Source: Spirochaetaceae bacterium (GTDB lineage Bacteria > Spirochaetota > Spirochaetia > Treponematales > Treponemataceae). Taken from it: DNA of 60,140 nt. Positions 22,338-60,140 of the stretch are shown here, one piece after another (positions within the stretch are counted from its first letter, which is position 1; every line of letters starts with the position of its first letter). The stretch is taken from the NCBI GenBank assembly GCA_017936665.1, contig JAGBFB010000016.1, positions 1 through 60,140 of the forward strand, read 5' to 3'. A program made the translations under genes and the position numbers. The notes under the pieces are model-generated. The model was not told the DNA's origin. It was given only the letters and a program-made list of their open reading frames with translations, and made no database searches.

Positions 22338-23519
22338 TTATTTAGTTATTTCAGTATTATCAATAATGTCAAGCATTTCATTTGTTGGATAGGTATTGCA
22401 ATTATGTTGTGTAATACTGCTACTTTGTCCGATACTTGTATAATCATGTACTGCGTCCAAAGAATCCATAACAAATGAGAAGTTAATCATATTTTGTAAA
22501 TCATTTACGTTTACATTCATTCTTGAAGCAGCTTTAGTTAACATTGAATTAATGTGTTGTATTGCTTCGGGGTTAAGTTTCTCTGTACCGTTTTCTGAAA
22601 TGTAAATATTGAAAGGAGATGTAGCACCATAATTAGAGTCAGTACTATAAATCCAATTCCAACCATCAATGATTTGTTGTTTTTCTGTATCGTAATAATC
22701 TTTTCCGAAAGTGTTATAACCACTGCTGTTTTCAAAATCTTTGTAGGCTTTTTTATAATCTTCAAGTTTAAATGCTCGATAACAAACCCATAAGCTATCT
22801 TTGTCAAGTGCGGGATTATCTGAAGTAGCAATTATATTTTGCGTAATATCTTCAAAGATTGGTTTGCAAATATCGTTGATGCTTTTGTTGTAATCGTCGG
22901 TTGTTGAACCAATTAAGTAATCGAAATTATTTTTGTAACTAGTGGTTTCTGTTGAAAGACCAGATGTATATTCATCAAATGTTTTGAAATCAATGTCGGC
23001 AGGGGTTTGGTAACCTTTGTCAGTGCAATACGCTTTGAATTTGTCACTAAATTCCAAACTATTGATATAATTTTCATAATTATCCTGGAAATCTTGCATC
23101 ATTTTTAATGGATCAACTTCGCCAGTAAAAGTGCTACGGTAATCATTCCAATTAGGATATGCAACTTTATACGCGCTACCTTCGCCACCAATGGTTTCAA
23201 CGTGGAAGTAGTGGCTTGCGTCGGTTTGTGTCCCTTCGCAAATATCACAAATATCCGTTGCTGGAGGGCAGGTGTGGTTAGGGTCGGTTTGAATATCATC
23301 ACAAGTATCGCAGTAATCGTGTTGGTGGTCTTTATCCTGAACACCATCACAAATTTTGCAGTAGTCAGTTGGAGCGTTGTTGTTTTGTTCTTCGTTTGTG
23401 TTATCATTTGGAGAATTTCCATTATCGCAACTTGTAAATAAAATCATATTAGTAATCAAAAATAATGAAAGAACACAAAAAGTTATAAATTTTGTAAAAT
23501 AATCTGTCTTAGTTTTCAT
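22338..23519 (-). CDS. lipoprotein with three CxxC-xxxQxD-xxH motifs
   Basis: Function not recognised. I start it at ATG 23519 (393 residues) with taggag upstream. The signal ends in the lipobox LFTSC, Cys31. An Asn-rich linker follows, then three repeats of a motif CxxC-(x)3-Q-x-D-xx-H (from Cys54, Cys70 and Cys91), for example DICDICEGTQTDASH. Such Cys/His sets could bind metal or form disulfides. The remaining 280 residues are soluble and helical, with no known domain. Its leader carries two copies of a 71-base repeat, each with a tiny ORF and a ribosome binding site. No neighbour shares its orientation closely enough to form an operon. Confidence 0.7.
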   Translation of the reverse strand: MKTKTDYFTKFITFCVLSLFLITNMILFTSCDNGNSPNDNTNEEQNNNAPTDYCKICDGVQDKDHQHDYCDTCDDIQTDPNHTCPPATDICDICEGTQTDASHYFHVETIGGEGSAYKVAYPNWNDYRSTFTGEVDPLKMMQDFQDNYENYINSLEFSDKFKAYCTDKGYQTPADIDFKTFDEYTSGLSTETTSYKNNFDYLIGSTTDDYNKSINDICKPIFEDITQNIIATSDNPALDKDSLWVCYRAFKLEDYKKAYKDFENSSGYNTFGKDYYDTEKQQIIDGWNWIYSTDSNYGATSPFNIYISENGTEKLNPEAIQHINSMLTKAASRMNVNVNDLQNMINFSFVMDSLDAVHDYTSIGQSSSITQHNCNTYPTNEMLDIIDNTEITK

Positions 23520-23551
23520 AAATACTCCTATAAGAAGTTGTGAGAAAAATT

Positions 23552-23638
23552 TCAATTTTTAGAACAACTTCTTAGACGCAAGTTTGCATCGCAAACTTGA
23601 TTTGAATTGAGAGGCACTATATGTGCCGAACAATTCAT
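23552..23638 (-). CDS. repeat-borne small ORF (28 aa), leader of lipoprotein gene
   Basis: aggag precedes an ATG at 23638. The product begins MNCSAHIVPLNSNQVC and ends KN. Most of it lies in the repeat 23579-23649, in which two palindromes (ggcac...gtgcc and caagtttgc...gcaaacttg) are part of the coding sequence. A hairpin (aagaagttgt / acaacttctt) overlaps its end and precedes the lipoprotein ribosome binding site. A second copy of the same opening lies at 23732-23794. Expression is unproven. Confidence 0.4.
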   Translation of the reverse strand: MNCSAHIVPLNSNQVCDANLRLRSCSKN

Positions 23639-23649
23639 AAAATCTCCTA
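23579..23649 (-). repeat. 71-base direct repeat, copy A
   Basis: Almost identical to 23735-23805: only three bases in the loop of the caagtttgc / gcaaacttg hairpin differ. Read on the minus strand it carries a ribosome binding site, an ATG, and two hairpins. Confidence 0.85.
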
Positions 23650-23734
23650 TTGGAAGTAACTGAGGAATTTTCAAATTCCGAAGGAACTCCCAAGTCGCTG
23701 TTTCGTAATTAAATGAGAAACAGCAGTAAATCTA
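23650..23734 (-). repeat. hairpin modules shared with the split Rpn locus
   Basis: Between the two 71-base repeats lie gaggaattttcaaattcc (hairpin) and ctgtttcgtaat...gagaaacag (hairpin). Both, in the same order, recur at about 59595-59665, inside the broken Rpn gene. This is a dispersed modular repeat family. Confidence 0.7.
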
Positions 23735-23794
23735 CAAGTTTGCTTTGCAAACTTGATTTGAATTGAGAGGCACTATATGTGCCGAACAATTCAT
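23732..23794 (-). CDS. repeat-borne small ORF (20 aa)
   Basis: ATG at 23794 after aggag; product begins MNCSAHIVPLNSNQVC as in the ORF at 23552-23638, then KANL and stop. It is the upstream one of two copies. The conserved reading frame, ribosome binding site and spacing suggest translation is possible, but the identical DNA could be conserved simply by recent duplication. Confidence 0.35.
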   Translation of the reverse strand: MNCSAHIVPLNSNQVCKANL

Positions 23795-59093: not shown

Positions 59094-59324
59094 CTATTTT
59101 ATTAAGGATTTTATTTCTTCTTCTGATAAACCCGTAACCTGTGAAATTTTTTCAATAGAATCACCGAAAGTTAGCATATTCTTAGCCGTTTCGATTGTCT
59201 TTTGTTGAGCACCTTGAGATATGCCTTGTTGGATTCCTTGTGAAATTCCATCTGAAAGACCGGCAGAGTAACCTTCTTTTTTACCGCGTCGTTCGGCGTC
59301 AAATTCTGCAAGTCCCCAAGCCAT
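59094..59324 (-). CDS. free-standing Rpn C-terminal tail (RpnS-like), copy 2
   Basis: A 76-residue protein with its own ribosome binding site (agaggtg) and ATG at 59324. It is homologous only to the C-terminal tail of Rpn nucleases: MAWGLAEFDAERRGKKEGYS, then repeats of GIxQG and AQQKTIETAKNMLTFGDSIE, and the end KISQVTGLSEEEIKSLIK. There is no nuclease motif. Upstream codons in the same frame read EIFRGDY-like (here QIFRGDY), just as in an intact gene, but a stop occurs before the nuclease part. It starts ten bases after the stop of the sister copy. In E. coli such tails are antitoxins to the full nuclease. Confidence 0.7.
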   Translation of the reverse strand: MAWGLAEFDAERRGKKEGYSAGLSDGISQGIQQGISQGAQQKTIETAKNMLTFGDSIEKISQVTGLSEEEIKSLIK

Positions 59325-59334
59325 GTAATCACCT

Positions 59335-59574
59335 CTAAATATTTGTAGAATTTTGTTCTTCTGCAAGTTTTTGTATGGCATCTAAAGAAATACCTGTTGC
59401 TTTTGCAATATTTTCAAATGAAAGTGCCATTGATAATAAATTCTTAGCCGTTTCGATGGCCTTTTGTTGAGCACCTTGAGATATTCCTTGTGAAATTCCA
59501 TCTGAAAGACCGGCAGAGTAACCTTCTTTTTTACCGCGTCGTTCGGCGTCAAATTCTGCAAGACCCCAAGCCAT
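59335..59574 (-). CDS. free-standing Rpn C-terminal tail (RpnS-like), copy 1
   Basis: A 79-residue product, ATG 59574 after aaggag. The first 45 residues match the sister at 59094-59324 nearly exactly (MAWGLAEFDAERRGKKEGYS, GISQG repeats); the C-terminal helix is different (ENIAKATGISLDAIQKLAEE). It lies directly after a hairpin-rich insertion that has separated it from the nuclease gene at 59715. The two tails form a tandem pair and are likely co-translated. Whether it is an active antitoxin or a remnant cannot be told from the sequence. Confidence 0.7.
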   Translation of the reverse strand: MAWGLAEFDAERRGKKEGYSAGLSDGISQGISQGAQQKAIETAKNLLSMALSFENIAKATGISLDAIQKLAEEQNSTNI

Positions 59575-59579
59575 ATAAT

Positions 59580-59732
59580 CTCCTTATTAAAAAATAATTG
59601 AGGAATTTTCAAATTCCGAAAGAATTTTTTTACGCAGTTTCGCAATAAAATGAGAAACTGCAATATATTTCAAAGTTTGTGTTACAAACTTTAATCAAAA
59701 ACTTCGACGCTATATTAGGAGAAGTTTTTGAT
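59580..59732 (-). repeat. hairpin-rich insertion splitting an Rpn gene
   Basis: Four perfect or near-perfect hairpins in a row: gaggaattttcaaattcc, gcagtttcgc...gagaaactgc, aaagtttgtgttacaaacttt, and atcaaaaacttc (59694-59705) with gaagtttttgat (59721-59732). The first two modules recur at 23650-23734. It lies between the truncated nuclease frame and the tail gene and supplies the tail's ribosome binding site. Confidence 0.7.
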
Positions 59733-60140
59733 ACAGCCTCTAAAAATTTCGTTAAGTTTAGTTTTTTCTACAAGGGAATTAAGTTTGTTTGTAAAATCAG
59801 TTGTAGAAGTCCTATCACTAATATACTCCAGAATTGATTTTTTTTCTACATTTTTTTCTTGTTTAAAAGCAGAGGCGTTGAAAATGATTTTATGGGCTTC
59901 ATCTTGTAAAAATAAATCTGGTTTTTCTTTGCAAGTATTTGAAAAACTATAGCAAGGCAAATTAAAGCCGAAAAAATCATCTTTGCAGATAAAAATAACA
60001 AAACTTTCTTTTAACTCGGTGTAATTTTTGCCTTTCAGTAAAAGGTCGATGTCCATCATGGATTGGTAATAGCGAGTTCGTTTTGGTAGATTTTCATCTA
60101 GGGAATTTTGGATTTCGATGTCGAAAACCCGATTTGAATC
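59715..60140 (-). CDS. Rpn-type nuclease, truncated at C-terminus; 5' end beyond right edge
   Basis: The visible 141 codons read from the window edge: FDIEIQNSLDENLPKRTRYY, then QSMMDIDLLLKGKNYTELKE, the nuclease core with E-x-Q. It ends EIFRGCIKNFS and a stop at 59715. The intact relative would continue EIFRGDYMAWGLAEF, so the frame was interrupted at RG by the hairpin-rich insertion. The catalytic domain appears whole apart from the part outside the window. The tail is now encoded separately by two downstream genes. Nearly the same DNA is at 1-372. Confidence 0.8.
   Translation of the reverse strand, partial: DSNRVFDIEIQNSLDENLPKRTRYYQSMMDIDLLLKGKNYTELKESFVIFICKDDFFGFNLPCYSFSNTCKEKPDLFLQDEAHKIIFNASAFKQEKNVEKKSILEYISDRTSTTDFTNKLNSLVEKTKLNEIFRGCIKNFS

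Follow-up and report, generated by a model that had tools for sequence, protein, structure and literature searches.

Probable splitting of an Rpn toxin-antitoxin gene by a mobile TD-1-like hairpin element at the internal Shine-Dalgarno sequence of its antitoxin

Rpn nucleases are DNA-cutting defence proteins with a built-in antitoxin. In Escherichia coli, the Rpn toxin-antitoxin system (RpnL/RpnS) is a gene-within-gene arrangement, with RpnS made from an internal start and restraining RpnL through matched repeats in the tail helix that the two share (Zhong et al. 2023, PMC10327210). How, then, did the gut-type Treponema analyzed here come to carry an Rpn nuclease gene that closes before its tail, followed by tail genes standing alone? 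The window, the whole stretch of 60,140 nucleotides that we analyzed, is the entire contig C5 and ends inside this nuclease gene. The minus strand of its last 1 kb carries, in this order, the nuclease fragment, an insert, tail 1 and tail 2, as listed in Table 1. The original prediction placed the nuclease stop at the tail junction, followed by two tandem tail-only ORFs of 79 and 76 residues, each with its own ribosome-binding site (RBS). Coordinates and pairing with the Shine-Dalgarno (SD) sequence agree with the two ORFs, and the nuclease frame does stop at the junction, after six insert-derived residues, CIKNFS. The nuclease had also been described as lacking its tail. The tail is indeed out of frame, but it is not simply absent, and a repeat of ~155 nt intervenes.

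Table 1. Features of the split Rpn locus, in window coordinates
Feature	Position	Strand	Details
Nuclease fragment, Rpn subfamily A	59715..60140	(-)	C-terminal 141 codons; ends in EIFRG-CIKNFS-stop
TD-1-like four-hairpin element between nuclease and tail 1	59572..59731	(-)	R1 covariance model, 140.5 bits, E=8.8e-26
Tail 1, stand-alone RpnS-like gene	59335..59574	(-)	79 aa; C-terminal half of NIAKATG type
Tail 2, second stand-alone RpnS-like gene	59094..59324	(-)	76 aa; SD AGAGGTGA; C-terminal half of GDSIEK type
Direct repeat of 59474-59584	59224..59334	(-)	94% identical ungapped; RBS and N-terminal half common to both tails

The nuclease fragment matched NCBIfam TIGR01784 (E=5.4e-19; 69.1 bits, curated cut-off 52.1) and Pfam PF12784 (E=2.5e-8; 34.4 bits, curated cut-off 27.4). 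From the PD-(D/E)XK residues, as read from the sequence, the E-x-Q (DIEIQ) lies in the window, and the preceding D (RLDVY) lies in contigs C20 and C27. These two contigs carry the N-terminal part of the nuclease, and their starts are identical to the last 141 nt of the window. The loss of the N-terminus is thus only apparent, a result of the contig ending there, and the exact 141-nt dovetail rules out a biological truncation in favor of an assembly edge. In an RpnL, the tail is in frame with the nuclease; here, a stop follows six codons past EIFRG, and then comes the insert.

Alignment of the window with intact paralogues from the same genome revealed a clean insert of ~155 nt between EIFRG and DYMAWGL, and the subfamily A paralogues L064, L062 and L065 have no insert, their EIFRG-DYMAWGL being continuous. 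A second Rpn subfamily, B (~52% identity between full-length members), has the same kind of insert at locus C13, between NRKEY and MNLHDRD, and none at C17 and C18, where the frame runs on through the junction. An insertion therefore split the gene, and the split recurred in a second Rpn subfamily. The clean insert rules out a frameshift or point mutation as the cause, and closure of the frame after six codons rules out the insert as a coding extension of the nuclease. Insertion targeted to Rpn genes as such is unlikely, given that copies also stand in front of unrelated genes.

The inserted sequence is a member of a dispersed four-hairpin family, in which 24 of the 41 predicted pairs show double-sided change(s). 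Scanning the genome itself with the R1 covariance model yielded 46 matches at E<=1, some of the weak ones being reverse-strand shadows of palindromic copies, and 23 matches at E<=1e-16. Copies were located one at a time, and in this genome the strong ones examined end either at an SD plus the start codon of an ORF or at another tandem copy. The genes downstream, named by eye from the sequence, include DnaK, FusA, MurG, FadD-like, OadB-like and lipoprotein genes, as well as both Rpn tails (window and C13). At the window copy, the 3' end carries the SD AAGGAG abutting the start codon of tail 1, whose ATG makes up the final bases of the range in Table 1. Among relatives, copies opened directly into an ORF in 32 of 39 cases (ORFs of at least 50 aa) and, in a second set, in 13 of 19 (at least 60 aa), against 13% for random positions; of the six copies in the latter set that did not, two precede the same short TGA-interrupted frame. 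Within the bacterial family, 72 of 145 genomes have the element; in 23 genomes from other families of the order, none was found.

The element is a divergent member of the Rfam TD-1/TD-2 clan. We call it TD-1-like because the window copy scores 46.3 bits against Rfam TD-1 (RF03155), under the gathering cut-off of 64.5, which five of the 20 loci tested did pass.

Several other features of the family were noted. At 23517-23794 (-) of the window, a 393-codon lipoprotein-like ORF is immediately preceded by two tandem TD-1-like copies. The 5' ends of the elements at L098, L100, L104 and L107 start with SD-ATGAAA, from which a short frame, MK(S/C)xAQIVLxFSxQVC, runs across hairpins 1-2; it is either a leader peptide or a mere by-product of the palindromes. 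Some copies lie off start codons, contrary to the general pattern; most of them belong to one subtype, often tandem with AAGGAACG-like flanks, in G005, G015, G045 and G001 (L233, L234, L235, L241, L248, L250 and L254). At L336 and L338, the element stands upstream of a short gene in which a TGA breaks the frame behind GGCRT and which may encode a selenoprotein. The same ACT-domain gene is preceded by the element in two genera (L111 in G000 and L220 in G006), reflecting either an old insertion or repeated insertion.

Is the element mobile? Both dnaK and fusA have a copy in this genome, and an R1 scan of 29 dnaK/fusA loci from relatives, two congeners included, found no copy. Empty sites together with dispersed copies, as in MITE-like elements, were thus found at the rpn paralogues, dnaK and fusA; clear terminal inverted repeats were not seen by eye. 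When the SDs flanking a copy were compared, the two of one copy resembled each other more than those of different copies did, both in this genome (mean score 13.0 vs 8.7; 0 of 5000 permutations) and in relatives (9.9 vs 8.1; 0 of 5000); in either comparison, some left flanks may be remnants of tandem copies. Such likeness on both sides of a copy fits a short SD duplication, and we infer that the element is mobile, with SD-like DNA as the target of its insertions. Our literature searches, whose coverage did not extend to the original TD-1 description, found no known SD-targeting element. For TD-1-type treponeme RNAs at large, we put the chances as evenly balanced that they form an SD-targeting mobile class and are not, or not only, cis-regulators. 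Such a class would re-supply or duplicate the SD, and so be tolerated before essential genes; it would split genes-within-genes at internal SDs and, in Rpn loci, free antitoxin tails with reassorting C-terminal halves.

Why did the insertion fall here? Six intact rpn genes of this genome, from subfamilies A, B and C, have their strongest SD-ATG where the tail begins (-8.8 to -12.6 kcal/mol); the exception is a diverged intact gene, B2 (C5:6860-7669), which has no strong internal SD. In the stretch with the split gene, no ATG pairs better with its SD than those of the tails, at -8.2 kcal/mol for tail 1 and -12.1 kcal/mol for tail 2, the next best reaching -3.9. After insertion, the SD before the tail ATG is weaker than the original one, at -8.2 in the window and -5.2 at C13. 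If the element favors SDs, the internal SD is its natural target within an rpn gene. Considering the start-codon position of the copies, the repeat of the event at the junction of the second subfamily and the presence there of the best internal SD, the element probably hit the SD inside the gene that serves the hidden RpnS, turning a gene-within-gene into separate genes.

We then turned to the two tails. Both match TIGR01784 exclusively at its C-terminal end (positions ~223-273; E=5.6e-8 and 9.3e-10). The tail profile matches 7TH0, the RpnA small protein of known structure (E=0.0015), and structure prediction gave one long helix and two short ones (residues 3-48, 53-60 and 64-77; pLDDT 77.8). 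A Foldseek search with the tail model returned no match at E<=0.001, and 7TH0 was absent among the 50 matches listed. The profile match and the predicted helices agree with the earlier view of the tails as RpnS-like, and each tail has an SD of its own. An E. coli-type DUF4351 protein is ruled out for tail 2, there being no PF14261 match. At the DNA level, the N-terminal halves of the two tails are 97% identical (120 aligned nt) and the C-terminal halves 65%, just as near-identical and different halves had been predicted. Within the N-terminal half, they differ by a 12-nt (four-residue) indel, and GISQ repeats are present.

The paralogue C41 has both tails and no insert, with 1-nt losses in the nuclease and in tail 2. 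The second tail is therefore independent of the split, and its duplication as a consequence of the split is ruled out. Tail 2 represents an older, downstream copy; such copies are known from E. coli and occur as well in a second genome of the Treponemataceae (G016). There, locus L204 has a full-length rpn followed by a tail whose N-terminal half is 100% and whose C-terminal half is 71% identical. At L205 (1145-1810) of the same genome, rpn is followed by two further tails, a three-tail array of which the last has a different C-terminal half.

In the genome under study, C-terminal halves cross nuclease subfamilies: those of C34 (B) and C2 (C) show no difference over 81 nt, and those of C37 (A) and C21 (C) are 96% identical. 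The C-terminal half of tail 2 is of the type found in the intact gene L064 and at C5:24768, and that of tail 1 is of the C17 type. Compared with C41, the tail 1 half gave a dN/dS of 0.14, from changes that may predate the insertion. The C-terminal half of tail 2 is drawn from a pool that Rpn genes exchange with one another. The supposed change of tail specificity in the original prediction fits this wider exchange across Rpn subfamilies (C34/C2 and C37/C21).

Taking these results together, we consider it quite likely that an Rpn gene with an extra tail was split by a mobile TD-1-like element on the internal SD of RpnS. The starting point would have been an ordinary Rpn gene, in which an internal start also yields the tail by itself (RpnS), plus an extra downstream tail gene. 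A mobile hairpin element that inserts at SD sequences, leaving an SD before the abutted start codon, would have landed here on the RpnS internal SD. The nuclease frame would then run six codons into the element before it stops, and what had been the internal product would become the free-standing tail 1. What underlies this sequence of events was observed directly: the insert, the empty sites, the start-codon position, the best internal SD at the junction and the open, constrained frames. Both tails are presumably translated and, by analogy with RpnS, may bind and restrain Rpn nucleases. Unable to make the tail-helix contact, a nuclease without its tail would have lost the tail-to-tail contact between RpnS and RpnL, and we therefore expect it to be poorly active or uncoupled from its antitoxin. 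If the free tails act at all, they would do so in trans, their targets being intact Rpn proteins in the same cell.

The original prediction offered two options, a two-component toxin with duplicated antitoxins or a decayed locus. The tails are indeed RpnS-like, equipped with their own SDs and duplicated, with exchanged C-terminal halves; the cause, insertion of an element, lies outside both options. Three things had not been foreseen: that a TD-1-like element with dispersed copies had inserted at the internal SD, that a second Rpn subfamily was split in like manner at C13, and that the second tail is independent of the split. As regards decay, the insertion would have ended toxin function and left the tails as passive remnants, yet without stops. 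This is a serious but less probable reading. TD-2 or TD-2-like insertions in L206 (G016) and in L212 and L316 (G002) accompany loss of nuclease sequence with an open tail, from which it follows that antitoxin-like tails can outlast their nuclease, and the 1-nt losses of C41 point the same way. No stop or frameshift is visible in the window ORFs, and the nuclease and tail frames are open both in the window and at C13, contrary to what decay predicts. The nuclease dN/dS is 0.07 between the window and the intact paralogue L064, and private changes are 11 synonymous to 3 non-synonymous in the window nuclease and 20 to 6 at C13. All of these substitutions, and with them the constraint, may predate the split, because the insertion cannot be dated.

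A working split toxin-antitoxin, with an active tail-less nuclease held in trans by tail 1 or tail 2 in an ordinary two-gene operon, would agree with two independent splits (window and C13) whose frames both stayed open, with an SD for each tail and with the separate translated rpnS genes of E. coli (PMC10327210). We regard it as unlikely: specificity of E. coli RpnS needs matched tail-helix repeats in both partners (PMC10327210), which is impossible for a tail-less nuclease, and the cistrons are separated by the insert, the upstream frame stopping ~140 nt before tail 1, so that translational coupling is not expected. It is similarly doubtful that TD-1-like elements are conserved, non-mobile cis-regulatory RNAs whose Rpn copies serve as regulatory leaders of the tails. 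Compensatory base changes in the element, the cis-regulatory classification of TD-1 in Rfam and the ACT-domain gene with a copy in two genera (G000 L111, G006 L220) speak for such a role. The downstream genes (DnaK, FusA, MurG, FadD-like, lipoproteins) are functionally unrelated, rpn paralogues include empty sites, and copies are absent at dnaK and fusA of relatives, which we count as refuting it; mobility and regulation are compatible with each other.

Under the preferred reading, in which a mobile element inserted at the internal SD, its two insertions at this junction, one in each of two Rpn subfamilies, would serve as natural reporters of a genuine RBS at the hidden start of the antitoxin outside E. 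coli. The locus would also offer a concrete route from an overlapping toxin-antitoxin gene to two genes. Should the element truly seek out SDs, what has been catalogued as an RNA motif would prove to be a mobile element, and one whose target is unusual.

Like E. coli Rpn, the genes described here encode a PD-(D/E)XK nuclease and a variable tail with four-residue repeats; intact paralogues have an internal SD and ATG for the tail, and the tail profile matches RpnA-S (7TH0). Unlike in E. coli, an element separates nuclease and tail, and two stand-alone tails have different C-terminal halves. Stand-alone downstream rpnS genes are known in E. coli as rpnE-S/ypaA and rpnC-S, and downstream tails there cluster with their own upstream tail (PMC10327210). 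A tail-only gene directly 3' of rpn is likewise found here and at two loci of G016, one with three tails. In contrast to the E. coli genes, the tails here have no DUF4351 (PF14261) match, and in the window and at L204 of G016 the N-terminal half is near-identical while the C-terminal half differs (97%/65% and 100%/71%, respectively). Concerning TD-1 RNA (RF03155, in clan CL00124 with TD-2), hairpins 2-4 of the element align to the whole TD-1 model. Compared with the Rfam model, the present family carries one more hairpin on its 5' side and ends at an SD plus a start codon, with empty sites and with similar SDs on both sides.
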